From: Aphrocallistes beatrix
Taxonomy: Eukaryota; Porifera; Hexactinellida; Sceptrulophora; Aphrocallistidae
Assembly (NCBI GenBank): GCA_963281255.1
Contig: OY725498.1
Span: forward strand, 3,596,001 to 3,660,000
DNA length: 64,000 nucleotides
Direction of reading: 5' to 3'
Shown piece after piece: positions 4,664-64,000 of the stretch. The notes below the pieces were generated by a model. The model saw nothing but the letters and a program-made list of their open reading frames with translations. It was not told where the DNA came from and did not search any database. The translations under genes and the position numbers were made by a program. Each line of letters begins with the position of its first letter. The stretch's first letter is position 1.

Positions 4664-5899
4664 ATGGCCAGTATTGGTACAGCAACAGACTCATTCCTTT
4701 CACAGGTTGAGATAGCACGTGGTGATATAAAAGACAAATTCTCGAAAGCTCACGATTTGTTAGGGGAATTAGAAACTGCGCTACTATCTGAATTGGACGA
4801 GCTATCAGCTAGATACAGGGGAGAAAGCATTGCTGCTCAGCTCTTACAGCTATCCACTTCTAAAGAGCAACTCATAGCTACTCTAAAAGGGAATGACAAC
4901 TATATTACATTAAAACAGAGTTTGTCATTGCTAGACTCTCGTATCAAAGAACTCGAAGATAATCTCGAAACTTCAAGGAATTCTATGTCAGGTGTTGTGC
5001 TAGAATGGGATTTAGAATTAAACCGAAGAATTAAAAAAATTGGCACGATCAAGGTGAAGGGACCAATGGATTACAAAAAGAAAGAATATCCAAAATGTAT
5101 CTGTTGTAAACATAGACCCATAGAATCTACAGCTGGTGAAATATTTTACTCTCCTAAATCAGTCTCGATTGATGCTCAGACAAAAGACGTTTATATCTGT
5201 GACTTTGGGAATAATCGAGTTCAAGTTTTCAATAGTTCCTTCCATTTCTTGTTCATGTTTAGTGATCGAATGAATGAACCAGTCGGGATTTGTGTCAACC
5301 AAGGGAAAGTTTATGTAGTACAGAGTATTACCCATTCCCTTAACGTTTATAATAATGCGGGAGACTTCCTTCAATCAGTTGGAAAAAAAGGAGAAAATGA
5401 GTTAGAATTTCAATGGCCTAGAGGAGTAGATGTTTATTCAGCTACAAATTTGATTTATATTTGCGACTGTAACAACAATAGAGTTCAATGTTTGAATGTT
5501 GACCTAAGTTTCAATTCTTTTATTACTAATATTTACCATCCTAAGGATATAAAAGTTGTTCCTGGTCTTATTGTTATTCTGAAGAAAAATAGTCCCTGTA
5601 TTCTTCAATACAATCTTTCTCATCAACTTATTCGAGAGATAATACATTTTGGAGAAAAAGAAAAGAGCGTTATTAATCCCAATTACTTCTGTATTGATGA
5701 TCAACGCAACATCGTGATGACAGATCAGATAGCAGAATGCGTACTTGTTTTCTCAAACAGCGGAGAACTGTTACACAGGTTTGGCAAACGAGGTGAAGGA
5801 AAGGGAGAGTTTATCGGACCGAGAGGGATAGCACTTGATTCAGAAAACAGGATTATAGTTGTATCTAACAACCCAGAAAACTGTGTGCAAATATTTTAA
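4664..5899 (+). CDS. Coiled-coil / NHL beta-propeller protein (TRIM2/TRIM71-like, no RING)
   Basis: A single-exon ORF of 411 codons. Residues ~10-115 are a heptad-rich coiled coil (for example SKAHDLLGELETALLSELDEL, read in two parts). Residues ~145-152 hold CICCKHRP, a short Cys cluster that is not a full B-box. From ~158 to the end there are NHL-type repeats with the usual Y-x-CD-x-NNR-V-Q core (YICDFGNNRVQVF, YICDCNNNRVQCL) and a final FGKRGEGKGEFIGPRGIALD strand. In animals such propellers bind RNA or protein partners, often in TRIM E3 ligases. No RING is visible, so ligase activity is not implied. An AATAAA lies at about 6071. The gene is isolated among repeats and intact. The architecture is certain; its role is not. 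Confidence 0.9.
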   Translation: MASIGTATDSFLSQVEIARGDIKDKFSKAHDLLGELETALLSELDELSARYRGESIAAQLLQLSTSKEQLIATLKGNDNYITLKQSLSLLDSRIKELEDNLETSRNSMSGVVLEWDLELNRRIKKIGTIKVKGPMDYKKKEYPKCICCKHRPIESTAGEIFYSPKSVSIDAQTKDVYICDFGNNRVQVFNSSFHFLFMFSDRMNEPVGICVNQGKVYVVQSITHSLNVYNNAGDFLQSVGKKGENELEFQWPRGVDVYSATNLIYICDCNNNRVQCLNVDLSFNSFITNIYHPKDIKVVPGLIVILKKNSPCILQYNLSHQLIREIIHFGEKEKSVINPNYFCIDDQRNIVMTDQIAECVLVFSNSGELLHRFGKRGEGKGEFIGPRGIALDSENRIIVVSNNPENCVQIF

Positions 5900-31946: not shown

Positions 31947-34900
31947 CGAGTTTTAATAGTAAGGATGATTGAATACAGTTATTTTGAGTGAATTATTTGA
32001 TTGATAAAAGTTATTTTATCGAATTGCTTGATCATATACATACACACTTTAATTATTGTTAACTGGGATTGGTTGATTATTCAAGTATTATAATCTTTAG
32101 TAATGTGAACTTTGTAGTTTCAAATTGACGTTACATTCAGGATTATTTAGCTTAATATTAAGCAAATTTCTTTTATCATAAACTTTTTTTAAAAAAAAGG
32201 TTAGAAAAAGCATTTATCAATTAAACCTCGTCTGTATTCACGTAATTACACATCTATTATCGTATAATATTCATTATCTTTTCATGTTTTCATATATTGG
32301 AATAGTAGGCTACAATTCTAGCAAAGTGGCTCTGTCTTCTCTAATTCTCTCAGAGGCCCTGGGTCTTAAGGACATGCTGCATAATGCCTTGATACGTAAC
32401 AATAATTGTCATTCGTGGTGGGGTACGACAATTTGATCGCCTCTCCGCAGAAGCCTTCCTCTGACTTGTATCCTTTTCTGTCGTTGAAACCTCCCTGAAT
32501 AGATTACCCATCGTTCTCCAGCTGACTCAATGCCAAAGAAATGCCTGTCTAAGCGTAAATCTTCTTTATTCCTCGAAAATAATTCATTGAGATCAGGTAT
32601 AGAAAAAGGGGACGCTCGAAATGGTCAACATCATTGTTCATACTCTGGTCTACGTCGCTAGGGAGTCTGGATAGGTAATTCTCCTTTCCTTTTACATATT
32701 GAACTTCGTATTTAATCGCCTCTAGCTCCTGGATTCATCTCGAAAACTTGTGTTTCGGGTCTTTCAGCCGAACGAGCCAGCGGAGTGGATTATGATCAGT
32801 AATAAAATGACCTTGCGTGCTGCCGTCTTTGATATTCTGGAAACATCTGATAGCAAACCTTTCCTTCTCTATACTTTCAAACTGTAGGCTTAGACTGATT
32901 GTTTGGTTCACTCGATCTTCTTCCTTTGAATCATATAAAAGGCAACGATGCTTGGTGGAACACTGGCTGGATTAGTATGAAGAACATCCTGGCAAGAAGC
33001 ATGGAACTGCCCCATCCTTTAGCTTCGGACTTGATCGAGGGATTTCTCTGACTGTACCGTCACCCTTTGGCACCTTGTGTGTGTATTCAATATTATTTTC
33101 TCTAAAGTGTTTGATACAAATGCAATATCAATATGCTCTCGATGTAGTCGAATCCATGTTTGCTTATGTTCAGGTAGGGTTTTTGGAATCCGAATACATG
33201 CGATCTCTGGTCTGTAATAGCTTTTGAAACCGGGAGCTGAGCACGTATTTTGCATTCTTAAAAGGTGACAATGACGTAAAGATTCCACGATGAGTCGACA
33301 TTTTCGTCTGAGGTCAGAACTTAGTGGAGCCATAGCCGAAGACTCCAACATGCCAAAAATCAGCTTTCTGTGCCTGGTAAGGATAATCCTTCTAATTTTC
33401 AAGTGAAAACGAAATGTCGGATTTTAGATCCACTTGTGTAAGTATAATACTTCAACAAAATATTTTGCAGAAGTTTTGGATCACCCTGCATATGGTTTCA
33501 CACAAAATATAAATAATTGTACGACACCACAATTGATTGTCATTGTTATTAATACTTCAAAGCAATAATTTATATTGCTAGCTTAATTACAGTCAGGGTC
33601 GCTTATTATGAACCCGCTTACATGAACATTCGTTTATTATGAACTAACCTCCAGATCACAAATTTCATTCCTTAGATAGGATTTGTATTTAATCAAGTTC
33701 GCTTAATATGAAGTATCTCTAGTATGAACAGATTTTTTGGTCCCCTAGTGGTTCACAATAAGCGACCCTGACTGTATACAAGTATTATAGTGCATATAGC
33801 AATAAAAAAGGTTACATACGTGTATATTTAACATCACTTGACGAATTTTAAAAAATATGCAGCTAGAAACTAGCTTCCTTCCTTTGCACAGCAATGTGGC
33901 AACATGCCGCGGGAATCAGTATCCACAAACAGATGGTCACACTAGACAGGGCTGAGTTGTTGGATAAATTTTATCATGAAATCAGGTTAGGAAAAATGCA
34001 TGTGCCTTCAGCAAAGACATGGTTTGTTGAGATTAAGATAATACCGCTATCACATACATTTATACTATGTTTTGTCTAAAAACTGTTCTAAAATCTACTT
34101 CAAGTAGTATCACACTTATATAAGGATGTAAGTAACTGGAGCTTCGTATATGACATATAGATTTTGATGTTTGGGCGGAGGAACTTTATAGCGTATTGCC
34201 CCCCCCCCCCCCCCCTATTCTACACCTATGTTCATAATGAATAATTCGAAACTGAAATCTGATTAGTTGTATCTCTTTCCGGTTCATGAATAAACAAATT
34301 TTTTAAAATTAATAACTACATAATGGATATCCTTACTATTAAAACTCGATTAATGTATATATGTATATACAGGTGACTCCGCTTAATCACTTTGGTCCCG
34401 GATATTTTGACTCATTCAAAATATCCGGGACCAAAGTGAACGATGACTCATCACTATGTTATGACGTCATCATTATGCATCAAAAATTAAAATTTAACAA
34501 ATTTAATGATTTTTCGAGTGATATCGATTTTAACAGTAAGACAGACATATTTCTAGATATTATCTCCCTTGTAATTAATCAATGTGAGCCTAGGTGCCCA
34601 AATGGTGCCTCTGATGGACACAAAGTGTCCGCCAGCCGCACAGCGGAAGCAAGCGAAGCGCGCTTGTAATGTTATAAATATAATTTATTCTACCTGAAAA
34701 TTAGATGATTTTCTTGGTACCACCACCGAATTAGGTTGCATATTACTTTTACCATAAAGTTTATAAATACGACCTATTTCACAAGACATAAAATCCACAT
34801 CTGATTTAGGTTGAAATCCAAACCCTTTCATTGGTTCACTTGATTGATTCAAAGTAAGAAATTGAATAAAAGGTTCATCAGGAAATATTTCATAAAAACG

Positions 34901-37900
34901 AATAGTCGTATCACCTTTACCGAGAACGGTCAAAACATGTGTATCTTCATCATAGAAAGGATAGAGAACAGCACTACTGGTGTCTAATGCCATCGTAGTA
35001 GGTTTATCATTAACCCAAACTGAAACCTAAAATAAGAATATAATAAAATATTGACAATCTTTTAGAAACAGAATAAAATCTGCAAATCATAGCTCAGTTC
35101 AAAATTAGTGATGGAGCACCATCTATTGTAGCAAGGACGTCCCATAATATTTAGTCTTTAACTTGAGTATATATTTAGATACAGGGTGTTCTCTCAATTG
35201 TCTACATAGGTAAGTTCTCTTAGGTGGATCGGAAAACAATGGACAATTGGCTAAGTTGGTTAAAGTTGAGGGATCAAGGTGGACTACTAAACAGAATATA
35301 GGCAATTAGCGATGATTTACTGAACTAGATACTATAGTATACATCATCATTCTACAAATACTAGTACAATTAAATTAACCAATTTAAGGCTAATATTCGG
35401 AAAATGGGTCGATTTTGAAATTTTCAAAAAAACTTGTTTTGGGCAAGGTAACTTTCTTAATCTCAACCTAAAACTCCCAAAAGCCCCAAATGGGGCTTTT
35501 GGGTGCAAAATTGTCATACGGAACAACAACTTGCAAATGGATCTTTTTGCAAATTTCCCCCCGAATCCTTTTCAGCAGCATAACTCAGTGAGTTTTCATG
35601 CTATCCTGATTTTCTTGACAGTAATCGACCCAGAATGGTCTCGGATTCGGAATCGAGATACGAGATAGTTTTTCCGAGTTATGGTGTTTTAAAGTTCAAA
35701 CATCACGAAAATTGGATAGACCTTTAACTTTACAACACCATAACTCGGAAAACCGTATATCGATTCTGAGCATCTTAAGTGAACGCTGGGACCATTCTGC
35801 ATCAATTCCAGTATAGAAAATCATATGAAAACTCGCTGCCACAAAGGATTAGGGGTAGGGAATTTTGCGAAAAGATCCATTTGATCAGTGGTCAGGATTA
35901 ACCTGAAACATGATCGTTGGTTTTATACGCAAACAGTACGTTTAACAAAATATCAAGAAATTATCCAATTTCTTAGTGAAGTCAGAAGAAAATTCCAGAA
36001 TCAAGAAAAACTAATTTTTAATTGAAATTCTAAACTCACTAAAACACTTCCGACCAATATAGATTTGTCACATTTTATGTACGATTGGTCCAAAATTAAT
36101 CATGTCAGTCGTTTAAAATGTATAGAATTCAAAAAACGCTGTACCAATTTGATTTGAATGCATTCTAGGTCTCAAAATGGGACTGGAACTAACATCTGAA
36201 GTCAAACCGGAACTATGAGATAGCATTCGGGGATATTTTGGGAACCTGAATTTTAGTGATTAAATATGTTGTTTTGAAGCATTTTTCACTATATTGAAAA
36301 TTCCAGACACTCTCCATAATATTCGCATGAGTTATGCGAAAATCCATTACATAGCCTACGCCAACAGAGAGGGGCCTAAATATAAAATCAATAAAGTCAG
36401 GGCCACCGAGGAAATTAAAAAGACCCGGGGCAGCACGTATCGATGGGCCCATCAAATGTATATATAATTTGAATACTAAAGTAATATTGAATGTTTACAA
36501 CAGAATGCTACGTAGTATATAAATATAGATCACATTATTAAAGTATCTCAATAACACTGAATTTTTGGTTAAAAAATGTAATATCCCGGGATCTCAGGAT
36601 GGTTGGAACTATGCTTGACTTCTTGAGGGTTTCGCCTGATAATTTCGCGCGGATCGAAAATCCGCGAAAGGTGAGACCAAAGGAGACCGGGATTAAAAGC
36701 TAAAATGTTATGAAAACTGTGAACAGTTGACAGACTTTCTATTGAAATGTTAAAGCTCGAAAACTATTGCAATTATTGCCAAAAACAATGGATACGTTAA
36801 ATATCTCTCGAGGAACTTTCTACAAATAACGGTAAGGAGAGTTATCACTTTAATCTCAAATCTATAAGAAGAACTTGCCAACCAAGGATATGGACTTCTA
36901 TGGAAACTCTCAGTGACATTATCCAGATACAGATAATAATATAGGACGATTATGCGTAGACAAAGAAATCAGTAGGCCACAAAAAACGATATATTAATCA
37001 TAGTGAACGTAGAAGTATTTGTAAACAGAAGTTGTCTTGTGGTGAGTATAATATATTAATAGTGTTAATGTAGGCTGGGATACCATTTCTCGCTGTTTAC
37101 ATAATCTTGAATATTCCCCTCCTTTCTGAAAAGAATCACCTTTTTAGACTAAAGTGGCCAAGGAAAAGTATTCATAGTCATTGGGAGCACTCAATATGGA
37201 CGAAAAAGGGCAATGTAAGACTTCAATCTATAATGAAACATACTCAAAAATTAATATCTGGGCTGCTTCCTCCTCAATGGGTGCATTTCCTTTGTGAATA
37301 TTGAATGAACATTAAATGGCACAAGCATCTGTTTCCATCAATCAAGATAAGTGGTTTTTAGTCCAGGATAACGATCCCGAACACACCTCAAAATTGAGCA
37401 TGAATGGTGCATGGAGGATGGATGCAAAAAATGTATCGCACATCATTGAATAGCCGAGTCAGAGCCCTGACCTTAATCCAATCGAAAATTTATTTACATG
37501 GATCAAATAAAACTTTGTAAAGCATTCTCCAAAATCAACTTAAAATAATAAAGATATAGCATAGCCTACTCTAATAACTCTGACTGAAAATTATGGACTA
37601 GGGATGAAGTAGTAGCCGAATGGATTAATACACGATTAGCCTAATATCGTTAACCATGCAGAATAGGCATTAAGAATGTATTACCAGCATATATAAACAT
37701 GGTATAAAAGTACATATATCCGTTGGAAAAAAAAACGAGTTTTGAGTTATGAATTGATTTTAAGAATGTGGCCAAAACAGTAAATTGTCGCATAACTCTA
37801 TGGTCTGTGAATTTGGAAGTTTAAATTGTATTATTACCTAATAGGAAGTAGCCAATTGCCTATCAAATACGATCAAACTTGAAGACCTAGTTCTTACAGT

Positions 37901-49010: not shown

Positions 49011-51093
49011 GTTCACAACTCCATCGCCCACTTCAATGTTTGGCTATCTGTATGTTTGGCACGAAATTATTTATGCAATATAATCATTCTAGTTGTTATT
49101 CAAGCTGTAGTTAACTAATTGTAGAGTTGGGACAGACTTAAGCTTATTCGTCACATTGTCACATTATGTAGAAATTATATTTCGAATAATTACTTCATAA
49201 TATGTCAGAATTAATCCTGATACTGTCTCAAGTCGGAATTGCTTCTACTTAAATATTGTAATTTATAACTGTTTGAATGAAAATATTTGTAAAGACACAG
49301 CACAGAAAAAAATATATATAATCTGACCTGTACCAAATATTTGAAATTCGATTTTTACCTATGACCGTTATAATTATTCTGACTAATTGGAGAGTTCTAA
49401 AATAGACTTATTGGTTAAATGGAGCATCCTTTTCCTCCCATTTCATGCATTCCATATCGATGTATTAAAAGGGCCTTAGCGCATGCGCTACTCTTCCCTT
49501 AGCATCTTAATTAATGAATACCCAGGGGCGGCGAATGCAGTGCGACTGGTACCGCGATCGCTGTACCACCTTTGAGAGAGGACCGGCTCTGCCGCACCTC
49601 ATTTTCGTGTAGCACCTATGTCAGGGCATATACTTATAGAATATGTAATATACAGCACACTACCCATGTATCTCAAATAGAAATAACCTCGATACTAAAC
49701 TAGGTCAGATGTCTGGTTCTTGAATGCAAAATAATTGGTTGACTATACGAAAAGTGCTAAACGTTATGGCAATAGAGTATACTAATAAGTTAAGAATAAT
49801 TTATAGTATATTTTATCACTGAAAAGGAAAAATCTTCTAAAAGAACATCTAAAAGGCTGGAAAAACTGACTGATTATTTAGATAAATTAATTAAAGGTAA
49901 ATAACTGCGTAAATTACAACACATTTTCCGACTGGGATGAAGTTGAATAGTCGTGGTGTTGTCAAACCAGTCATTTTATTGCCGCAAAGGATTTGAGGTG
50001 GTAAATTTAGTCAAAATTTGAATTCAAATTTATTGAGGCTAGTGGGCACTTTAGGTAAAAGAAAAAAGCCTTCAAAGGGTACTTGGCGGAGTTTTTTGGT
50101 TTAAAATGTAATAATCGGCTTTTAATCCGAATATTCGTACTCAGGTTAAAATTTGAAGAATTTTGTGGGGGTCTTTTGAAGGAGTTCTGAAAACAAAATT
50201 TTCTTGACAACGCAGGAATGGGGCCACATTCCATTCTCAAATTTCGTTATAACTGTACCGTGTGACCTTGTTTTGCTTCTGATATCAATTATCCACAAAT
50301 AAACCCTGTATTAGGTAATTTACAATAATTTCTTGAAAAGGGGACCTTCGTCCGAAAATTCAAAATTGGCGAATTTGAAATATGCAAATTAACAACCAAC
50401 TGAAGCCAGATTTTGGATATAATATTACTGGGGAACCATATAATAAGTTAAAAAACAATAAAATAAACTATTTCAATTTGTTTGTGTGAAAACGTATCTC
50501 CTCGATTACTTTCTAAGTGCGAAAATTTACAAAGTGAAATAGCCTGTATTAGCCGTTGATATCCTGTTTCTAGAAGGCGTTCAAATATTAGGCCACTGTT
50601 AATCGGAAACATGTTTCAACTTAACTCCACCGCTCGTATTAATATTTAACTAGGTATATATCTCGTATTAATATTTAACTAGGCATATATTGTTATTATT
50701 GCCATTAGTACAATCAATATCCTATTATATTTCAGATGCAGGGAATTTATTAATATTGATTGAGTTATAGCTGTGCTTTTCAACATTTGTATGCAACCCT
50801 TCGAAATCGTTAACCATATTGAGGAACCCTCTTCCTATACATGGAATATCTAATGGATACAAATTACAATTAACAATCAATGAATACAAGGACTAAATTA
50901 GGCTCGTAGGGTCGACATTTGAACCGGGACAGGCATGGTCGGTTGGCTGGAGCATCGCTACGGCCCTGTAAATAGTTAGTGACTTGTTTGTTGTTTCATT
51001 TTAATTATAGGATCAAAGCATGAAAAATGAGAATTTTTGATTTATCTGAAAATTCATATATTCATATATTGTAGGACAATGTAGGCCATCACA
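49011..51093. other. Gene-poor AT-rich stretch
   Basis: No coding region recognised. AACGCAGGAATGGGGCCACATTCC-like text at 50210 (words AACGCAGGAATG and CACATTCC) recalls the foldback core. A short direct duplication, ATATCTCGTATTAATATT / CGTATTAATATTTAACTAGG, lies at 50635-50690. Confidence 0.4.
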
Positions 51094-52503
51094 TTATATC
51101 TTACATCTGATTATAACAGAGTGTGTTTCGCCTCGCTTATACTCTTCATAGAGTGGAAAGAGCACAGATCTACAGTTTAGCACTACATCTCCCTCTACCA
51201 GCTCTACCTCCCTCATCATACAGGGGAAGAGGTGCACTGGAGGTCGAGAGAAGGTCATCTTCTCATCGCTAGGAACTGCACAGTTGAACTTTCCATGACA
51301 CTTGGTATGTACTGTAATCTTGTATAAGGAACCTTCAGATGGAGTTTGGCTGGAGTCTTGTATGGGATTCATCGAAGTGAGGTAGGAACAATCTTCCTTA
51401 CAACTCATGAGTCGTGCCTCGAATGCAGGATCTCCATAGAATGCAACTTTATCCTGATCGTGGAGCAGCCCCCTACACTCTTCGTCAGCTTCTCCAATCG
51501 TCGCATCTTCAGGAAGGGACGAATGATGAGGAAATTTTCTATGAAGTTTAGCTTGTAGAGACTGATGGTTGGCAAAGAAAGCCTCTGAGAAAGTCATTTC
51601 TCCCGGATTATCGAAGAAGTATGAGTGCACACCCCATCCCGCGTAACCGAACCAGGTGACCACGGTATAGCCAGTCATTTGCACAACGCCCGCCGAGTGC
51701 ATCCAGGACAGAGCCATGCAGTCCTCATCACTAACATGTCCCATCAAACAATTGCCGGCTGCGCTGTATATTTTAGCTTTACCATTGTGTGTTACAGGCA
51801 TTAGCTCGCCCTTCAAATTCCTTCCGCAGAGGCTCCCACCTTGGCTGACTAGCTTTCCACTCTTAAAGGAATAGCCAATGTTCCAATCTCGTTCTGATGC
51901 ATGTCCACTGGTCACCACCATATCCACGCCCTCATCTTTCTCAATATTACGCTGTGCACTTAACTCATTCACTATCTCTTCAGTGGAATCATCAGGACAT
52001 TGTTCTTTCACAATGGAAGGGCATCCCAGCTTCTTTCGATTTGCTTCTCCCTTTACTCCCTCATTGTACCAGACCCCAGACTCACAATTGCTCAGGTTTA
52101 CAGGAGTTCCTGCTAATACGCGTCTAACTATCAAATCTTCCTGCTGTACAGAGAACATGAAGTCTTCTTCATTCCTCGCAGTGAGAACTCCCCATATAGT
52201 GTCGTAGAAAGGGTTAGAAGGGTCAATATCCCTGGTTAAGTGGTGTAATAGTGAAATGAACTTTCTAGAACATTCTTGATGAGATGCTACAAAACAGCAA
52301 AATGAAGGTCTCAGGTTTTGTAATGCCACAAGAATGCTTCCCGGATCCCCCAAGTGTTCCAATAGTGATACTCTCCCAGGCCATTTAGTATCGTATTTTG
52401 TGAATAATGAGTCAACAACTTTTGTGAAGGAAGATTTCGTTTCTTTACTACAAATTATTGCATACATGCAAGGTGAAATAAAATTCATCCTCTCGACATC
52501 CAT
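51094..52503 (-). CDS. Intronless protein with a clan CD-type His/Cys pair (C25-like), possible bacterial origin
   Basis: A 469-codon uninterrupted ORF with no signal peptide or membrane segment, visibly more GC-rich than its flanks. Residues 196-203 read VVTSGHAS (His201) and 247-256 read SAAGNCLMGH (Cys252). These are strand-end His and Cys spaced as in caspase-fold (clan CD) peptidases such as gingipains. The text around them (DWNIGYSFKSGKL; MALSWMHSAGVVQMTGYTVV; TWFGYAGWGVHSYFF; SEAFFANHQSL; VAFYGDP.FEARL) matches an uncharacterised family I remember from Planctomycetes and other bacteria. So does PFYDTIWGVLTARNEED. A peptidase role is inference. Bacterial origin is suggested by the missing introns and base composition, but must be tested. 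Confidence 0.75.
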   Translation of the reverse strand: MDVERMNFISPCMYAIICSKETKSSFTKVVDSLFTKYDTKWPGRVSLLEHLGDPGSILVALQNLRPSFCCFVASHQECSRKFISLLHHLTRDIDPSNPFYDTIWGVLTARNEEDFMFSVQQEDLIVRRVLAGTPVNLSNCESGVWYNEGVKGEANRKKLGCPSIVKEQCPDDSTEEIVNELSAQRNIEKDEGVDMVVTSGHASERDWNIGYSFKSGKLVSQGGSLCGRNLKGELMPVTHNGKAKIYSAAGNCLMGHVSDEDCMALSWMHSAGVVQMTGYTVVTWFGYAGWGVHSYFFDNPGEMTFSEAFFANHQSLQAKLHRKFPHHSSLPEDATIGEADEECRGLLHDQDKVAFYGDPAFEARLMSCKEDCSYLTSMNPIQDSSQTPSEGSLYKITVHTKCHGKFNCAVPSDEKMTFSRPPVHLFPCMMREVELVEGDVVLNCRSVLFPLYEEYKRGETHSVIIRCKI

Positions 52504-52680
52504 TGCTCATCCACTGTAATAATAAGCTTGATATAGTTACAAACTAAATTGGTAAGATATGATATCACAACTGTCTATGAAAATATAATTAAATAATGGT
52601 GCGTGGCTTTTACTAGTGGGACCTGAATAATCTGACATTACTTGAGATATGAAGACATACCTGCCAATTTACTCGTAAAC

Positions 52681-53071
52681 GGAAAATTCGTCGCAGGAAA
52701 ATTCATCGGAAAACCTAAGTTGTATGTACAGTGTGTAAGAAGTGGGTGATTTTAGGTGTGGAAATATGATGAGGGGGCCGAAGGCCGATTTCAAATGAAA
52801 GGAGGAATGGAGCTCGAAACCAGGTGTCAAGGAGGCTTTTGAGGTGGAGAATTAAAGTAGTCACGTAATATCATGGCATTTTAGGCGCATGATAATGTAA
52901 TCATGGGATTTTGCACTACTGTATTTCCATTTTTTCGAGTCATAGCGGCTAAAAATCAAGACATCTAGACAGTTACAAGCTTGTACTTATGCCGGTTATA
53001 TTCTTATTTATGCATTAGATACGATAGCGACGAATTTTCCTTGCGAAGAACTTTCCGGCGACGAATTTTCC
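52681..53071. mobile_element. MITE with GGAAAATTCGTCGC ends
   Basis: The left end repeats GGAAAATTCGTCGCAGGAAA, and the right end has CGACGAATTTTCC twice, as inverted repeats. About 390 bp, non-coding, no clear duplication. Confidence 0.65.
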
Positions 53072-53100
53072 GCCATTCCAATTACTACAGTCAATTCCCT

Positions 53101-53385
53101 GGGCATTTGCTCATATCACTGGACGAGAATCTAAATACGAAAATTTAGTTTCTAATATATCTAAAATCAATATATCTTCTGACGAAGACTATGAACTAGA
53201 AGAGGCAATTTTATCCGAGACCTTACCAGCACAGGAGTGCGAAATGCTAGATACCGTTTCCCCTCCAGAAGACCACCTTGAATCAATTCATCTCATGCAT
53301 GGAAACGTGCAAATGTCTTAATTAGATCAGAGCAGCTAAAGCAGAAGAGGCAATATGATAAGAAAGTCAACGAAAAGAGGTATGC
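53101..53385 (+). other. Coding-like segment, unidentified
   Basis: After ATTACTACAG the frame is open: SIPWAFAHITGRESKYENLV, SNISKINISSDEDYELEEAI, LSETLPAQECEMLDTVSPPE. One shift later it reads SSHAWKRANVLIRSEQLKQK RQYDKKVNEK before GAG|GTATGC. The basic tail resembles the C-terminal end of retroelement integrases (RAN.LI..Q..QK..YDKKV). It could be a retroelement relic or an exon of the next segment. Confidence 0.25.
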
Positions 53386-53466
53386 TACTTTTATTAATGA
53401 CACTAACATAGAGAAATATGGATTATTACTTTTAATACGTGTATGTTCAAACTTAAGGAAGGCATA

Positions 53467-53782
53467 CTGTCCAACCTTCCCGATTTCGTCGGGATTCTCC
53501 CGGTTTAGTTTGTCTATCCCGACTCCCGACGCAAGTCCCGCCGGGAGCTATATAATCCCGATTTGACCTATTTTATCCCTCTTTAACCCGATATTCTACA
53601 TTGTTAATTCGATATTCCCCTTCAACTTTAAGACAATAACCAATAGTTGACAAATTTTTACTTATATGCTATATAAAAAATTGAATATCCATAGTTTGCC
53701 ATAAATAATATAGCCCAAATTTTGGGGTCAAAGTTTACGGTCTGACCCACGTTAGAAATCCCGATTTGAAGTAGTTGGACAG
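53467..53782. mobile_element. TA-flanked MITE
   Basis: Ends CTGTCCAACCTTCCCGATTT and AAATCGGG...AGTTGGACAG, flanked by TA (53465-53466, 53783-53784). The interior repeats TCCCGA words. Confidence 0.8.
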
Positions 53783-53795
53783 TATGGGGAGGGGA

Positions 53796-54170
53796 CAAAA
53801 TACTATTACCAACATGCCTAAATTAAAACAGATGCCCAACACTAAAAGCCAGGGTCAATTTTTTAGACCTTTTACAGCGTCTAGAGTTATTGACAGTCAT
53901 GCTATCATTTCAAAAGAAGAATTAAAATCCAAAAGAGATAAGAAGGTACCCATCCACATCACACAACTCTATTACGAGCGTCAAGAATTTGAGAGCAGAC
54001 TCTCTGATACGAAATCTACGGAAAAGAGGAAAGTTGATCTGTCTGATAACCGAGAGACCAAAAGATTCAAACTTCCACAAGTAGTATGTTCAATATTTCA
54101 CTCAATGCGTCATGATATGATTTGCTTATTTGCCCCCTCTTCTCTAGACCCCAGTTTACAAGTGAACTAA
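53796..54170 (+). CDS. Hypothetical basic protein or exon
   Basis: An open frame reads MPKLKQMPNTKSQGQFFRPF, TASRVIDSHAIISKEELKSK, RDKKVPIHITQLYYERQEFE, then a Lys/Arg-rich stretch to FKLPQ. It could end at a donor (CACAA|GTAGTA, about 54078) rather than at the stop at 54168. The ATG at 53775 lies within the MITE, so the native start is probably elsewhere. I recognise no domain; it may be one exon of a nuclear protein. Confidence 0.3.
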   Translation, partial: QNTITNMPKLKQMPNTKSQGQFFRPFTASRVIDSHAIISKEELKSKRDKKVPIHITQLYYERQEFESRLSDTKSTEKRKVDLSDNRETKRFKLPQVVCSIFHSMRHDMICLFAPSSLDPSLQVN

Positions 54171-54250
54171 TTCATAATCATCTCTCGAATCTCAAGGTGA
54201 TTTGAATAGTTATGTGTTTGTAAAGTAATTATCTCATGCTATGTTTCCAT

Positions 54251-54694
54251 GGTAAAGCGGAATATGTCCTACGAAAATATTGGAGAATGTCCTACAAACA
54301 ATGTAGGAATATGTCCTACACAACTTCTGATGTAGGAATATGTCCTACACAGTTGAGGCGTGGTATAAATATGAGGGTATAATGAGGCTTTTAAGGAATT
54401 TTTGCATTTTTAGTGATTTTTTTCTTTGGAATCGGGTGTCCGAAGCAGAATTTCAAATTCAGAATTATAAAAATCGATTGAAAAGATGCAAAGAGTGTCA
54501 TTGTTGATGTAAATGTTTGTTAAAATTAGGAAAAGGGGACTAATAAAAATTGGAATAATAACATCAAGTCGTAAAAGGAAACAAATCGGTGTAGGACATA
54601 TTCCTACATCAGAAAAATATGTAGGACATATTCCGGAATTGAGGTTGTAGGACATTATATTCTGGTATTTTCGTAGGTCATATTACGGCGACTC
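54251..54694. mobile_element. MITE with GGAATATGTCCTAC repeats and 8-bp duplication
   Basis: GTTTCCAT flanks both sides (54243-54250, 54695-54702). The left end GCGGAATATGTCCTACGAAA is mirrored by TTTCGTAGGTCATATTACGG. TGTCCTAC / GTAGGACA occurs about eight times in inverted halves. Confidence 0.8.
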
Positions 54695-54702
54695 GTTTCC
54701 AT

Positions 54703-55583
54703 GACTTGTTTCATAAGAATGCTGACGCCAACTACTATACTCTCATCGAAATTCTTGTACATGTTTATTTTAAATTTATCACTAGACAAAATAATTGTGC
54801 AACTGTATGCTGTGAGCTTAATTAATAATTAATTAATTCATGAGAATGATTTTTCTCAATCACTAGATAATTCTCAATGAAAACTTGAGGAAAGGTACTT
54901 TCGTGAAGATCTACATAGGAAACTGAATAGATTCCATCATGCTCAAAATGACAGAGCCACCCTATAAATTTAATTTGATGCTAAATGTTTGAATAATATG
55001 AATCTAATAGCGTTGTCTCAAAATTACATATATGCAAAACTGAATCCATAGTTCGATAACACTAGGGTCTCAGAATTCTATGCGTCTCAAAATTCTATTT
55101 AATCCATGGTTCCATAACACTAGTGTCTCAAAATTCCACGCAACAGGCCCTATTTCCTCACCAAAAAAACTCGACAGCCACCCTAAATACCCCTTTCGAC
55201 AACCTGAGAGCCATATTTCCTACACAAAATGCTGCTAAATCGGGTCTGAAATGGGTAGCATTCACCACTGAAAACGCTCAGCGTCAAATACGTATTCAGT
55301 TTAGGAGCTGCACTAATAATAAAGAATGCATATTATCTTACAACAGGTAGCACGTGCAGCAGAAGCAAAATGATTACCAGACGCACTAAAATTACTTGTA
55401 ATTATAGTGAACGAATCATGTAGTCATTTAGAGAAATGTCTACATGATAAGACTCTACTAAGACACAATAAAACAATGATATTAATTAATTATATCGATT
55501 TGACTCTCGCAATTTCTACTCAGCAATCTTAAAAGCCTATTAGTAACTTGTATATAAGGTAAAGTTCAGATCTAGTAGTTTAG
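54703..55583. other. No gene assigned
   Basis: AT-rich. An open frame at 55140-55345 ends at a possible donor (CAACAG|GTAGCA), but there is nothing else to support an exon. Confidence 0.3.
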
Positions 55584-56206
55584 GCATAGCATTCTATACA
55601 CTAAGGCAATGGTGCTCCCTAAAATTTTTGGATCAGGTATTGGTTAGTATATTCAGGTTTATTCACATCACTAACAAAAATTCTTCTTATGCAAGATCAT
55701 TAAAATTTAGTACCGGCATATATAAACAATATATACAAGTGCTTCAATCGGTTATCAAAATGTGCTTAATCATCATTATATTGCGCAACAAGCTATAATT
55801 ACGATTAATTTAATCAATTTCTTGCATGCTTTACGCAGTAATAATAACAGCATTAATGTTTATTTAGTATAGGGAATCTCACGTTGGACCAGTTGTTGAA
55901 AAATACATTCTTGCGTTGCTAGAGAAACGTAATCTGACTGACTCGGGATATATCTCAATAACTGTGCTAGACAAATTTCAACGATTTTACACAGAAGAAA
56001 TTTTGTCAGTGATGTGAATATATCTGAATATACTAACCAATCCCTGGTCCAAAAAAATTAGGGAGGACCCCTTAGTGGTCCACATGATTCAAAATTTTGT
56101 ATTAAGATAAATATGAGGGGTCCATGGAATAAGGAATAATTGCTATAAGGGGGTCCACAGCCAAAAATGGTTGAACACTGCTGCCTTAGTGTATATAATG
56201 ATATGG
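55584..56206. mobile_element. Foldback element with hAT fragment
   Basis: The left end GCATAGCATTCTATACACTA is mirrored by AGTGTATATAATG at the right, and GATCAGGTATTGGTTAGTAT by ACTAACCAATCCCTGGTCC. A hAT-type end (GGTCCACAGCCAAAAATGGT, then TGAACACTGCTG) is inserted in the right arm. Confidence 0.75.
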
Positions 56207-56445
56207 TTTAGGCTTGAAGTAATACAGTTAATATTAGATGTGCAGTCGTCGAGGCATAATTTTCCTTTATATATAGTATGTCCACTAAGACAACCAGTAA
56301 AACATTGTTAAATTAATATTTTGATTATACAGTTGATTTATTTAATTGATATTTTCTCAATTTAAAAAATATGTAAAAATTTCCTACTACGTGTATTATA
56401 AAACGAATTACTAACTGTTTATATTTGTTAAGAACTAGAATCAGG

Positions 56446-58282
56446 ATGGCAGAAAAAATGAAATACTGCGGATTAGGGATATTAATAGTGAATCATTTTA
56501 AAGACAATGCAGAATTGATAAGGCCAGATGCTGAAAATGAAAAGAATAGGATGATAGAACTATACGCAGCCCTGGGATTGGAGGTAGAAAAGCACGAAGA
56601 TCTCACTCTTAAACAGATGGAAGATGTCTTGGTTGAAGTGTCAAAATCTGAAAATCTCAAAAATTATGATATCCTTGTTATCGGAATCAGGTTTGCACTA
56701 AATATAAATAAGATAGTTCATAGAGTCAGATATCTTTTAATAAAATATAGTCACCATACGATATTTACTAATATCTTTGAAGTTCGATTGCAACCCATTC
56801 CCGGTCTATTAGCCTAGGGGTATTTTCAATTTATAGTAACCTCCCCGAATTTTTATGACTCCCACGCCTGTAAAGACTTAAATGGAAATGAGTAAGCAAC
56901 ATTCCTAGGCTTAGGCGGATTTTAATATGTTTTATGTTTGTTGTTTTCACGACATAATAAACCTCATTGTATTAAGTAGAGTCATTGCCTCCTACATTTC
57001 AGACAGTGCGTTCCTAACTGCACAAAGATTAGCCTTGGTTCAGAGCCTCAAACATCCAATGTTATCTCATTCGTCAAGGGAATCAATCTAATTAGGGGGA
57101 AAACCCCGGTTTCGAATGTATAAATTTTAATTAAGAAGCAAATTTCAAAGAATTTGTTAATAATTCGTGCTAAAAAATGAAATCTAATGATTTGTTTTAA
57201 TAATATTGTAATTTTCCTATTAAGTATTAAACATTTATACGACAGAGCCTTTGCCAAAATGGAAAAGGGGTGTTGATATATTTCATCATGTCATATCACC
57301 ACACAATGGCATCACACTGACTACACCTTGATTACAATTTTAACACACATATTGATAAAAATATATGCTTAAAAATTGAACTCTTCATTAGCTACTAAAC
57401 ATTAATTTTTATCTCATTAGTTCGCACGGAGGGGATTCAGGTCTATTTGGAATTGATGTCCAGAAGGATAATCCTGGCGCTGGTGGAAAGGCATTGTCTG
57501 ATGGCTTTATTCATAGAAAATTTAATTCAGAAAAATGTCCAGCGTTAAAAGATAAACCCAAACTGATTATACGTAATGGTGGAAGAGGTAAAACGATTCA
57601 ACTATCCGTTCCCAAGATCACATCCGATGGAAAACCTCCTCCTGTCAAGTCAGGAGATGAAGAAGAGATTGGTACAGACTTTCTAACAATATGTTCAACA
57701 GTAGACGGATACGGACCGTTTAAACAGATACAGAAGGGATCGAATTTAGCTCCATTTCTTAAGGATGCAATTGAGAAAAACCCGAAAGAAAACCTTCTAT
57801 CATTACTAAATGGTGTCGATGAAAAGTTTAGCTCTGTTGGATATCTTGACGAGGATGAGGATGTGACGGTACAGGAATCGCTCTCAGTCACTAATGGGAT
57901 GGAAGAAAAGTCTCTAATCCTAAATAATGGGTAAGGTGTCTTTCTAATTATCCAAATACATATAACATCATGATAAAGCAAAATAACAATTCTTATCACG
58001 AAAAAGCGTGTAATTAAAAGTTAGGTGATCTATACAAACCTAATCCCAAATCAATTTATTTTCGAATAAAAAAACCCTCAGCTGGAATGGGAGCACGATT
58101 CAATTTTCTTAATACTATGGGGTTTACACAATCGTTTTTTCTTACTATTTAAACCTAAACAAATAGGAACATCTAGTTCGACCTTTTTCTGTTATTAAAT
58201 GGAATAATAAGTAAATTTATCTGATCTATTTGTTTGTAGGTCAATGAAAGATGTGTCCTATAAGGCTATTCCTAAGACTTGA
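56446..58282 (+). CDS. Caspase-fold protein lacking the catalytic cysteine (pseudocaspase)
   Basis: The exons are 56446-56690, 57421-57930 and 58240-58282, with GT/AG sites and matching phases. The predicted protein is 265 residues with no prodomain. The p20-like part has CGLGILIVNHFKD, an Arg in ELIRPDAENEK (Arg26), and NYDILVIGISSHGGDSGLFG, with the catalytic His conserved (His84). The active-site loop KPKLII is followed by RNGGRGK, where active caspases have QACRG: Cys becomes Gly136 and Gln becomes Asn134. The p10-like part is DFLTICSTVDGYGPFKQIQK, then GSNLAPFLKDAIEKNPKENL; the usual S-W-R substrate Arg reads P-F-K. The frame is open and the splice sites are good, so it looks like a maintained non-catalytic paralogue that might regulate active caspases. 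It could also be a young pseudogene. Confidence 0.85.
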
Positions 58283-59439
58283 AAGGATCTTCTGCAACGC
58301 AAAGGACCTATTTCATTATGTAAAATATTAACTGTATTTTGGATTACTCATTTTTTATTTTTCTGGTCCTGTTTCCCTGATTATGTTATGTAGATAGTAT
58401 GACACCTTTTGGATTAAACTACGTATGTCTGCATTATTTTATTATTCATCCCAGCTCTTTGGGCTCCTTTTTGGGCTCCACCCAAATTATACTTGTTTGT
58501 TAATGATATTCTCCCAATCTCCACCTAGGATTTCATTCTCACGCGTATACGGCAATGCGATCTACAAGCACGTAAATTCAGGCCAAAATGAATCTAGGCT
58601 GGCGAAACCTTGATCAAAACTAGTAGATCTTAATAATAAATGGCAGTGGCTAGTCGTGCGAAATTAATGGGAGATGTTTAATCTTAGAAAATCTGGAAAA
58701 TATCGCGATTAAATGAATTGAGATTTTCAATGCAAAATTACCTCCGAAATGTGACACTTTCTGACAAACTAACTTTATATCTCCAAATGTATATTTAAAT
58801 ACAATATTTGATCAATTATGTAATATTAATATTTATACCAATTCATTTTACGAGAAACTATTCTTCACCTTCACCTTTAAGACACAAAATCCAAATTAAA
58901 CAAAAATATTTCGATGCCATTGATAGAAATATTAATTTTTCTTTAGGTTGTAAATGGGGATAAAAATGCAAAATCATCCCGATACTATCCGAGGATATAC
59001 AGCATATTATATATGCTGGCGGACACTTGGGGACCAAGGTTCGCATTGATGTATATGAAGAATATTAATATACAGATTCCATTTAAAATTTCACCCTTTT
59101 ATCACCTAAAATGGCTGAGTTATAGTCGAAAAGTTGACAATGACATCATAATTCCATGATGAGTTGACATGAAAAAATATAGAGATGGTGTTTAGTAAAT
59201 AACTTCGACTACTGCAGAAAATAAAAATTCATTCATATGTTGAATTTAACTCATAGGAGCGTAGTTATGATGCTATGCAATGTAGATAGCACTGGAAATT
59301 TATTCAAAACAAGTCAGCAGATAGAAACAAATTTATGATGTAAACAATATTTTCCATTTTTTTTATAGTACCAGCCGAAAGAATAAAATGATTAAAGAAT
59401 TATATTTTGAGATTATAACTCCAAATTGAAATTTAAAAA
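58283..59439. other. Intergenic; Helitron-like remnant
   Basis: 58988-59175 is a decayed Helitron-like piece (GCTGGCGGACACTT, ATATACAGATTCCATTTAAA, AATTCCATGATGAGTTGACA). The remainder shows nothing. Confidence 0.5.
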
Positions 59440-62400
59440 CTAAATCACTAAATGTTTCGAAATTTCTTTCACAGCTAACATCAATGAACATTCTGTTTCT
59501 CTACTTGCATTCACTCGATTCAAAAGCTTCCGAATTGAGCTTCCGATTGAGTCATTCGTATATCCCACAGAGATGCCATATGTTTTCAAGTCAATGATAT
59601 TCTGCTTGAAATCATATACCATGATTAGATCCACTATGGTTCTATGTTCTTGTTTCTGCGGTAACAGTCGTAAATAGAGCATATAACCTTTGGGGATTTT
59701 GTATAAACAGCTTATTCCCGGGTTTATTGAGATTTCACCACTAGTTCTGCAATATGGATTGTCTGGGACTGTGAGACATAACTCTGGCCTCCAGAGCCAC
59801 TCATTCAATGGATTCTGAAAGTGTTTGAAGATATAAGCAGCTGACTTTATTAAACTTGAAGAAGAGTTCATTAATGTGAGATAGCACGAAAGTGCGTTAA
59901 TGCTAAACACGGGGGATTTAATCTTACTAGAATGAAAAAATGTCACAAGTGTTTGGAGTTCAGCATCTCTTAAGGTTGTGTGGGTATCAATTGTGTCATT
60001 GAGAGACAATTTAACTCCAAGATCAGTGAAGTTGGGTTCCAAGAAAATTGACACCGTCACCTTATCGAATTGGACGCAAAAAGAACCTGGTTCAAGTTTA
60101 ATACGGGAAGGGTCGAGGTTAGGAAGGTTGCCAAATTTAACCAGTCGCTCATAGTCCAAGAGGTATGCGGCTCCTAAATAGAAGAAAATAATAACAATAT
60201 GTAGAACTAATGATTCATTTTAGGAATTCATACATTTCAACCGTCCCGTTTATGGCGGGACGTCCCGCTTTTTTCACTCTTTTATTCAGCTAATTTCACG
60301 AGTGTCCCGTTTTTATTAGAAATTTACTCATTACGTCCGGCTTTATTAGATTCCATGTATAATTTTCTATTGCTACCACAATGTCCCTCGCCGTATCCCG
60401 TTTTTATCATGGCTCATGTATTGGAAAATTTTAAAAGTTGAATAGTATATATAAATAGGCGTGCCCGGCGATCCTAGCACACCTGATCCGTGCTGTTGCC
60501 TGAGGTAATTCCGTAGCTACTCCAAGGACAAAATAATACATTCCATGGTTAAATGGATGTATGAACCTCCATTGTGAGTAAGCATTTCCGAACAACAGAA
60601 ATAATAGGAGAGAATAGTATATGCCTATGTGTGTCCATTTAGTGATTTGTAGCATTTATCTACAGTCGCGGAAAAATGTTTAAGACCACTTACTGAAAGT
60701 TAAATATTTTCGACTTAGTTATTTTGGGAATACTACTTACATATTTTACCCAAACCATAATAATCACGCTAAAATTGTTTCTTTCAAATGTACGTACATA
60801 TATAACTAACTAATAAAATAATTTACATATATAACTAACTAATAAAATAATTTACATATATAACTAACTAATAAAATATTCAGGGGAAAAATTCGAATCT
60901 TATTCCTATATTGAAGGCACAAATTACTAATCATTTTCAAAATGGAAGGCTCGAAAGAACTAAAGCATTTCTCGTAGTCGAAACTTCGATAAATCATGGA
61001 TAGCTCTGTAAAGAGTACTTCTCAATTTGCGGCCCTTCCGAAGAAAGATATGTCCTCGATGCCCCGAAGAATATCGGCAATAATTTCAGCTAAAAGTGGT
61101 ATCACGAAATATTAATTTTCAAATGTTATGAAATGTTAATTTACTAAATAAGTACATAGATATAATTAAAGTTTACTTGAGCCAAACTTCTAATCAGAAT
61201 CGTCTACTACTAGTATACTACACATCCTACATGAGTAGGATTTTCTTAGATAACCATTATGGTTGAGTTAGTTAACGGTGAATGCCTGAAATTACCAAAT
61301 ATCTTAAGTGGTCTTAAACATTTTTACGTGACTGAAGTATCTCTAATTATAACCATATTAGTCAACTAATTCAATTATTGACATTGTGCTGTGATGTGAC
61401 GTGATACAATGATACTCATCACTTAATGGTCATCATGTGAGAAATGTGATCACACATCTGTGAAACTTCAACTTTATAACTCTTAATTAAAACCCTCGCC
61501 TGGCTAGGTCTCAAAAGTATAAATAGAGAAAACCCCACTTTCACTTTCAATGTACTTTCATTTTCACTTTCAACATTCCTAGCCAACCGCGGGTTAAAAG
61601 TCGAGTTATCCTGGAACCACTGAGACTTCAAATTATAAAAATGCAACAATAAAATCACAATTCAATGATGAGCTCACACTTTTGCCTGAGAACTTACTCG
61701 AGAAAGCAAAAAAAATTATGGTGTTCCAAAAATCAGCATTTTGAGTACCCATTGCTTCAATCAATACGTTACAGATTTAAGTCATTAGACTTGACCTGTA
61801 ATCTGTTAAGGATTTAAAACTATACTGTGAAGGCAGATGCAGAATGTTTTGAACACTAATTTATGCAGATAATTATATCACGAGCTAATATTACCTCAAA
61901 GCTATTTCTTAAAATAGAACTATTGAATAATTTATCCATAATAGTTCAAAGAGGAGAAAAGGAGGGCACTTCGCACATTCTAAACTCCCCAACCAAAGGT
62001 ATTCGTACACCCTAATATTCATCATTCAAATGGTTATAATACAATTCTGCTAATGGAGTCAATAACATTTAATCGGTAACAAATACGTACAAAAAATTTG
62101 CTTAATTAGCATATGTGTAGAAGTGTTTTGCTTTAAAATATTATTAACACAACGACTGTCGGACGATGATTGGAAATATTTTACCATTTTTTACAGAGGT
62201 GTGAAAATTTCGCTTAGATAGTCGAGTCCGTATGTTCACCATTTGACACCCCATGCCAATTTTCATAACCTTACGACTTGCCAGTTCTTTAATCTATTCG
62301 AACAAATTGTAAAAATATCTAAAAAGGACATAGCGTTTTAATATATAAGATTTAAGCGAGTCACCAATTCAAAAGATTGGATAGATCAGGAAGAAAGGAA

Positions 62401-64000
62401 TCTCAGGATCAAATCGGAAGTTAGAACTGCTGATCCCAGTCATACATTTAAAATATTCCCCTTCTTATTTTCAATAAAGGAATATTTTCTGTGTTTTACG
62501 ATCTTTGATCGAAGATCATAATCTTATCTTATATATTAAAATGCTAGGATTTTTTGTGTGATTGTCCGAATTGATTGAAGAATTGGCAAGTCGTATAGAT
62601 ATCAAAATTGGCATGTTGGTGTCAAATGATATGACTACTATTAAGTTCTAAGATCTAAGAGAAATATTCACACCTCTGCAAAAAATGGACAACTTTTCTA
62701 TAAAATATATATGACTTCACTCCCACAATAGAAAACACTGTACGACACTACAGTAGATTGTCATTGTTATTATGTAATACTTCAAAGCCACAACTTATGT
62801 TAGATATCTTAATTTTATTATAGTGTATTGCAATATGTGCATATTTATGTGCATATTTTCACACCTTTATATACATATTTTCACACCATTTGACGAATTT
62901 TGAAAAATATGCTAGATACTAGCTTCCGGTTGACATGGGGTTTTTAGGGGGTGTAGATCCTGAAAATAGTATTTTCGAATCTATGCGATAAATTCTATTC
63001 GTTTACTTTTGTTTACATTAGATACATAAAGTAAACAAATTACAAAAAAAGGCTAGAGACTGGCTTCCAACTGTTGACATGGGGTTTTCTGGAGTGTAGA
63101 TTTCGAATATTATATTTTTAGATCAATATGATAATTTATTTGTTAAATTTTGTATACAATATTTATATAAAGTAAACAAATTCCCAAAATAGGCTAGATT
63201 GAGTAACTCCAGGCGCCCGCAGGGCGACTCTGCACACGAAGTGTCCGCAAGCCGCGCAGCGCGCTTGTGCCATAATAAAGAATGGCTGAATATTCGTTGC
63301 CAGAACATTCATCATCGAATGTTCCCGTGATGGATACAGCATGAATTAAGCTCATTAGAAATAATTTGAGTTCATTTAGATCTGGTTAACGCATATGTCA
63401 GTTCAATGAGTCCATGGTTCTTATATCAGCCCCCAAATGCCTCTTTTAAAGGCTGGATTCCTTGTCCTAAAATGCCTGAAATTAACTGTATCATTTTCCT
63501 ATCTAAAATACCTGGATTCTCATGACGTCTCGAACAGGAAGGTTAATCCAACACATATTCCTAATACAACGAATATCCCGGCGAAGGATGTTTCGTTAAT
63601 GCTTAATAATATAGTTAGATAAAGTACGTATATGGGGAGGTCACCATTTAAATGAAGAGAGCTCACCTAAAAAAGTGCATAATGGTGGAAGATGAGGTTT
63701 GTCATTACTAGGTAGCAAAAGCGACTTTAGCGTAAAATAGTTGATTGTTTTAGTTGGGTGGGAAGGAGGAACGCTGCTATTGTCTGAGTCATTAGGGGGG
63801 AAGAAATGGTGTGTAGGTTTTGAAGATGTAGGAAGTAAAGGACTAGGCTTGGAGGACGCAGTTGGAGAGTGTAAGAAAGAAATAGGAAACTTTCTAGCCT
63901 GAGAAACAGCAGAAATAGGTAATGAAGGCGGAAAGGAGTCGATAAATTTATCTAGAAGATGTAACACTCGTTCAGTTGGATCTTGTTTTTGTATATGCAA
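59440..64000 (-). CDS. MED14: Mediator subunit MED14, C-terminal exons (partial)
   Basis: MED14 is the backbone subunit linking the head, middle and tail of Mediator in RNA polymerase II transcription. Two exons are visible: 63667-64000 (running off the window) and 59440-60173 (last). The donor TTTTTTAG|GTGAGC and acceptor TTCTATTTAG join in phase 1 to give LPPLCTFLG-AAYLLDYERL. Matches to animal MED14 are LKSLLLPS.......P, WRPELCLTVPD, YMLYLRLLPQKQE.......VDLIMVYDF, and the C-terminal SIRKLLNRVNASRETECSLM LAVKEISKHL (compare VSNILKRFAEMNPPRQGECT...AAVRDLMANL). The upstream exon is rich in Ser and Pro. The 3.5-kb intron holds a MITE and Helitron-like elements. Identification is by memory of the vertebrate sequence. 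Confidence 0.85.
60663..61334. mobile_element. Tc1-type element, non-coding
   Basis: Ends CAGTCGCGGAAAAATGTTTA and inverse (TAAACATTTTTACGTGACTG). TA precedes the left end; the right TA is mutated. The interior contains a tandem triplicate (60787-60881) and a short relic that may be transposase N-terminus (60960-61090). In the MED14 intron. Confidence 0.8.
60787..60881 (+). repeat. 29-bp tandem repeat, three copies
   Basis: Unit ACATATATAACTAACTAATA + AAATAATTT, the last copy truncated. Confidence 0.9.
61620..61790 (-). repeat. Helitron-like 5' remnant
   Basis: TTCAATGATGAGCTCACACT, then CCAAAAATCAGCATTTTGAG and TTCAATCAATACGTTACAGA match the 5' part of subfamily B in reverse orientation. 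Confidence 0.65.
62195..62351 (-). repeat. Helitron-like subfamily A 5' remnant
   Basis: Ends GCGTTTTAATATATAAGA before T (minus-strand TC start). It faces the complete copy at 62527-63267. Confidence 0.7.
62527..63267 (+). mobile_element. Helitron-like subfamily A, complete (MED14 intron)
   Basis: Starts TCTTATATATTAAAATGCTA after A and ends GCCGCGCAGCGCGCTTG before T. It contains two to three of the ~130-bp internal units (TTGACATGGGGTTTTTAGGG at 62931, TTGACATGGGGTTTTCTGG at 63075). No ORF. Confidence 0.88.

Follow-up and report, generated by a model that had tools for sequence, protein, structure and literature searches.

A caspase-fold gene with glycine at the nucleophile site in the glass sponge Aphrocallistes beatrix: a candidate pseudo-caspase

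Results

Structure of the gene

The window analysed in this work is a stretch of 64,000 nucleotides (C12:3596001-3660000) from the genome of the glass sponge Aphrocallistes beatrix, of which 100.5 Mb in 28 contigs were searched. It contains a three-exon gene (hereafter the window gene; Table 1), exon 1 of which codes for the N-terminal part of a caspase fold, with the start codon of the model located eight residues ahead of GLG. Joining the exons yielded 798 bases with the frame intact (265 residues plus stop), which reproduced the first-pass annotation of three exons with GT/AG sites, compatible phases and a 265-residue product. The splice model is supported by the recurrence of both introns, in position and phase, in the paralogue L016. 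If exon 2 is left unspliced it runs into an in-frame TAA, and a two-exon alternative product of 253 residues is possible on the sequence; splicing of intron 2 is nevertheless favoured, because the place of its donor and its phase 2 are common to the window gene and L016. No homology was found between exon 3 of the window gene and exon 3 of L016 (SH3-SH2), and exon 3 is the part of the predicted model held with least certainty.

Table 1. Coordinates of the window gene, its active-site codons and the paralogue L016 (window positions unless a contig is named)
Feature	Position	Strand	Remarks
Exon 1	56446..56690	+	start codon to donor inside first Ser codon of SSHGG
Arg26 codon	56521..56523	+	large-subunit S1 Arg, kept
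Intron 1	56691..57420	+	730 bases, phase 2, GT/AG
Exon 2	57421..57930	+	SSHGG to last caspase strand; without Cys nucleophile
His84 codon	57425..57427	+	catalytic His, kept; SSHGG = residues 82-86
Gly136 codon, GGA	57581..57583	+	nucleophile site; NGGRG = residues 134-138
Lys183 codon, AAA	57722..57724	+	small-subunit S1 Arg column
Intron 2	57931..58239	+	309 bases, phase 2, after last caspase strand, GT/AG
In-frame TAA	57932..57934	+	reached by exon 2 if unspliced
Exon 3	58240..58282	+	final 13 residues and TGA
L016	about 600-2241 of locus L016 (contig C3)	-	active-looking caspase with Src-like SH3-SH2 tail, three exons

Caspase domain

Residues 13-219 of the product matched Pfam Peptidase_C14 (PF00656) with an E-value of 3.3e-19 and 69.9 bits, over the Pfam cut-off of 21.4, which places the window gene in peptidase family C14. 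It was the sole Pfam family in the 265-residue product at E <= 0.1, and no recruitment domain, prodomain or adaptor was found there by Pfam. Among solved structures, 152 distinct sequences matched at E <= 0.001, the lowest E-value being 3.3e-09, and the best 60 of them are mainly caspase-3 and -7 and also caspase-4; among the matches listed, NGGRG of the window protein aligns to QACRG. Chance is excluded as the origin of the caspase-domain match. Structure prediction for exon 2 alone gave a pLDDT of 33.5, too low for the model to be of use.

Relatives in the genome

The genome contains 58 exon-level matches to PF00656 (61 candidates scored). Caspase domains from the fetched loci made up 63 rows, from which 12 were dropped (nine fragments from L024, L025, L030, L031, L038 and L045, the paracaspase-like L036, and two unspliced pieces of L016) and to which spliced L016 was added, giving 52 rows that include three incomplete ones (L025:9020, L030:3260 and L038:413). 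Among the dropped rows, L031 and L036 have Cys in the motif and L045 is without that region. Two long single ORFs, L024:963-4001 and L029:2-3649, combine Roc GTPase and caspase domains, and L024 also has a CARD.

In a tree of the 52 rows, all of them from this genome, the window gene fell into a six-row clade (support 99/93) with L011, L012, L013, L014 and L016. All five sisters keep the His, Cys and Arg, the motif being NGCRG in L011, L013, L014 and L016 and NSCRG in L012. The window gene thus lacks the nucleophile while its paralogues in this genome look active, as had been proposed. Its neighbour in the tree is L012, with weak support (79/53); a topology that unites it with L016 lies 3.1 log units lower and is not rejected by the AU test (p-AU 0.279), and since the shared introns were weighed more, kinship with L016 is preferred over the L012 placement. 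The end branch of the window gene is the longest of the 52 (2.13, the next being 1.64), which is also expected under relaxed constraint. C-terminal NHL repeats were found by Pfam in L011, L013 and L014, and none were reported in L012. The three NHL-bearing sisters (L011:1438-3126, L013:436-2193 and L014:1399-3153) are single ORFs of 563-586 residues with the caspase domain followed by the repeats.

Active site

Asn134, Arg137 and Gly138 are retained in the window protein together with His84 and Arg26, and the catalytic His motif SSHGG is intact, as annotated. The Cys before RG is replaced by Gly136, and of the two S1-pocket Arg columns, in the large and the small subunit, the first is occupied by Arg26 and the second by Lys183. 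Pro181 and Lys183 mark an alteration of the pocket beyond the nucleophile site. The Cys column holds Cys in 51 of the 52 caspase rows and Gly in the window gene alone; the His column holds His in 51, the exception being L018:2226-3377 with Tyr. That row is the only other one of the 52 missing a residue of the catalytic pair, and it resembles the window gene in that one catalytic residue and the small-subunit Arg are both lost; it differs in keeping its Cys, in lying in a tandem array on contig C17 and in belonging to a different clade.

Arg is missing from the small-subunit Arg column in 11 of the 52 rows, one of which has a gap there; ten of the 11 are on contig C17, nine of these in an array at 338-390 kb. 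Pocket damage is therefore frequent in this genome and nucleophile loss is not (11 of 52 rows without Arg against one of 52 without Cys), and the Lys to which the annotation had drawn attention at this column is indeed present but not special. The C17 array (338-390 kb, L017-L022) is a tandem caspase array, and one of its nine Arg-less rows is also without the catalytic His.

The annotation had further set NGGRG against a QACRG norm. The Cys is gone, but the local motif is NGCRG or NSCRG, so that the three apparent differences shrink to one: given the reading of the clade sisters, only the Cys departs within the motif. QACRG as the ancestral motif of the window gene is ruled out by the same clade motifs. 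The nucleophile codon is TGT (26) or TGC (25) in the 51 paralogous codons read and GGA in the window gene, a difference of two base changes, the second of which is silent if the route runs via a glycine codon. This two-step change, in one codon only, hints that the loss of Cys is not brand-new. A six-frame search of positions 50001-63000 for an exon supplying the Cys ([QNH][ACGST]C[RK]) gave four matches, none of which could be placed in a caspase context.

The caspase-SH3-SH2 paralogue

L016 has introns of 81 bases (intron 1) and 97 bases (intron 2, phase 2), and it is split in the same way as the window gene, i.e., in the first Ser codon of SSHG and past the last caspase strand, with equal phases. 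The break in the caspase profile falls at 68-73 in both genes; the other tree rows are single ORFs, or pieces that break at profile positions 39, 48 and 65. Exon 3 of L016 carries an SH2 domain by Pfam (1.2e-14), and its residues 69-204 align with Src SH3-SH2 (8.9e-17); no SH3 was obtained from Pfam in this exon at E <= 10. The two genes are alike in clade, intron positions and phases, SSHG and the N in the NGCRG place, and they differ in that L016 keeps the Cys and the Arg and has the SH3-SH2 tail; 66 of 204 aligned residues (32%) are identical. NHL-like ORFs flank L016 on both sides, as judged by eye.

No comparable tail was detected for the window gene. Exon 3 of L016 gave three tblastn matches on the window, with E-values from 2.8 to 9.3 and all more than 9 kb away from 58240, and the window gene accordingly falls outside the caspase-SH3-SH2 type. 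When the NHL regions of L011, L013 and L014 were used to look for an NHL tail 3' of 58240, the matches fell in a separate NHL gene (4664-5899), with the sole exception of a weak L013 match at 34865-34942 (E 0.16). That separate gene is an ORF on the forward strand for an NHL-repeat protein of 411 residues. In the sponge Amphimedon, TRADD-N proteins differ in their C-terminal domains, some carrying SH2 and others caspase, and the available part of that account describes no caspase-SH2 fusion (PMC8195603).

Constraint and decay

The window gene keeps 37 (0.74) of the 50 columns that do not vary among its five sisters, the highest share in the remaining 47 rows (median 0.54) but barely above that of the best non-clade row, L032 (0.70); its mean identity at 192 variable columns is 15.5%. 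The 13 changed columns include those of the Cys and the S1 Arg, and several of the changes are conservative. Of 48 all-hydrophobic columns (VILMFYWC), 44 stay hydrophobic in the window gene, Gly136 being among the exceptions, and this score is joint highest of the 47, with L044 (median 0.83). When each sister was scored at the columns invariant in the other four (53-61), every sister keeps 50 and the window gene 38-40. The C-terminal stretch of the window protein is divergent, and a clade-invariant Cys at column 230 has become Val; in caspases the C-terminal stretch carries the dimer strand.

With a codon-score table built from the paralogues' own ORFs, the window gene scored 0.195 per codon in frame and -0.03 to 0.03 in its other frames; the paralogues' ORFs had a mean of 0.129 and a minimum of 0.030, and no non-coding chunk that was scored exceeded -0.012. 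Against L016, dS is saturated (pS 0.85) and dN is 0.81. Neutral evolution was simulated for the first 253 codons, with transitions making up half of the changes and an assumed indel rate of 0.1 per change, 80% of the indels breaking the frame. Counting stops and the assumed indels, the open share of the neutral copies is 6.3% after 0.03 changes per site and 1.1% after 0.05; counting stops alone, it is 6.9% after 0.10 and 2.4% after 0.15. Because some copies stay open, a recent loss is possible. The intact frame had been read in the annotation as an argument for selection, which holds to the extent that few neutral copies remain open, but a recent loss fits the same frame. A broken copy serving as control, L038 (C7:527001-528200), shows 91.5% identity to L008 across 745 aligned bases, and its caspase domain is interrupted by a gap of two bases; it is probably a recent, decaying pseudogene copy. 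At the sequence level these comparisons show long constraint on the lineage of the window gene, much of which may predate the loss of Cys.

Discussion

The reading that we hold somewhat probable is that the window gene encodes a pseudo-caspase under constraint, which acts by binding active sisters as a non-enzymatic partner or competitor. In this proposal, the gene would descend from a caspase of the N(G/S)CRG-bearing clade, its ancestor probably standing in the same intron-bearing line as L016. Gly would have replaced the nucleophile Cys, and Lys the small-subunit S1 Arg, with the conserved core of the fold retained. A product without the nucleophile would not be expected to cleave peptides, and selection would maintain it as a binding protein that would most likely pair or compete with the active sisters L011-L014 and L016. 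By analogy with c-FLIP(L), which pairs with procaspase-8, activation of the sisters might be damped or boosted, and the dominant-negative or scaffold role suggested in the first-pass annotation would be an inference of the same kind.

The main rival, which we consider unlikely though a serious contender, is a young pseudogene that lately lost both its job and its Cys and has gathered no stop or frameshift yet. The longest end branch of the 52 rows is consistent with it, as are the joint loss of Cys and S1 Arg with no adaptor tail found, the presence of a probable decaying copy (L038) in the same genome, and the simulated neutral copies that stay open at 0.03 (stops and assumed indels) or at 0.10 changes per site (stops). 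However, the splice sites, frame and codon bias are all intact, and GGA takes two changes in one codon, improbable in a short neutral spell unless they came as a single event; the core columns are also far better kept than the variable ones, although mostly, perhaps, from before the loss. A pseudo-caspase whose function has nothing to do with the sister caspases, i.e., a separate scaffold or binding protein, seems rather improbable. It would agree with the lack of a Pfam prodomain or adaptor that could link the protein to its sisters and with the diverged C-terminal stretch, and FLIP(L) too has caspase-independent roles (PMC7586951, in the part available). The divergent C-terminal region and the absent recruitment domain could mean either such a separate binding role or decay.

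That the protein is still a peptidase, with a nucleophile from another residue or from a different exon, finds some encouragement in the five retained active-site residues, but the six-frame search of positions 50001-63000 yielded no Cys motif that could be placed in a caspase context and every other row of the 52 has the Cys, and we regard this as very improbable. An assembly or base-calling error at the Gly136 codon is scarcely credible: it would take a double miscall within a single codon that left the frame undisturbed, and Pro181 and Lys183 are pocket changes elsewhere.

The constrained pseudo-caspase that we favour would belong to an already known kind of protein. According to the available part of PMC7586951, human c-FLIP(L) is likewise a caspase fold without the nucleophile and a paralogue of active caspases, and it pairs with procaspase-8 in a complex active enough to process neighbouring procaspase-8. 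The same source gives FLIP(L) tandem DEDs, with Tyr and Arg replacing Cys and His; the window protein differs in having Gly for Cys, a retained His and no DED listed by Pfam. Tandem DEDs ahead of the caspase-like domain, which mark the c-FLIP family, are absent from the 265-residue model, and the window gene is better classed as a pseudo-caspase, broadly defined, than as a c-FLIP family member. Caspase-like decoy molecules of Diptera are also inactive caspase homologues from gene duplication (PMC3141678, available part, citing Bryant et al. 2010), and a mosquito decoy enhances a paralogous caspase according to a title cited there; the window protein is likewise a putatively inactive duplicate, in another phylum.

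We infer that the origin of the window gene is likely separate from that of c-FLIP. It is a tentative and rather doubtful extension that a c-FLIP-like pseudo-caspase arose in the glass sponge in an event separate from those in vertebrates and flies, from caspases with phosphotyrosine-reading SH3-SH2 tails or NHL-propeller tails, the nucleophile and the tail being shed to leave a free-standing trans-regulator of the tailed caspases. If the gene is selected, dead-caspase regulators would seem to have arisen more than once in animals, and it would offer a further system for asking what a nucleophile-free caspase does. Its lineage has a large, domain-shuffled caspase set, and the SH3-SH2 and NHL fusions of the sisters suggest caspase circuits wired unlike those of vertebrates. 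No occurrence of the word "caspase" was listed for two glass-sponge genome papers (PMC10280926 and PMC10282587).

Genome setting and other features of the window

A 527-codon stretch of COX1 on contig C28 contains 11 TGA, 2 TGG and 11 AGA codons, and it presumably fits the usual animal COX1 only with AGR read as Ser. This reading of AGR is found in glass sponges and otherwise in select bilaterians only, and TGG is rare for Trp in glass sponges (PMC2267718, available part). The genome has at least 19 exon-level homeodomain matches (24 candidates), and the G+C content of the window is 32-39%; in the glass sponge Oopsacas minuta, homeodomain proteins number 20 and the G+C content is 36% (PMC10280926, available part). 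Among 32 cathepsin matches, the motifs obtained from three of the six fetched loci included no silicatein Ser-type active site. On the reverse strand of the window, positions 51094-52506 form a single ORF of 470 residues, which had no Pfam, NCBIfam or PDB match and no relative in a scan of prokaryote genomes; its SGH and GNC motifs recall gingipain-like peptidases of clan CD.
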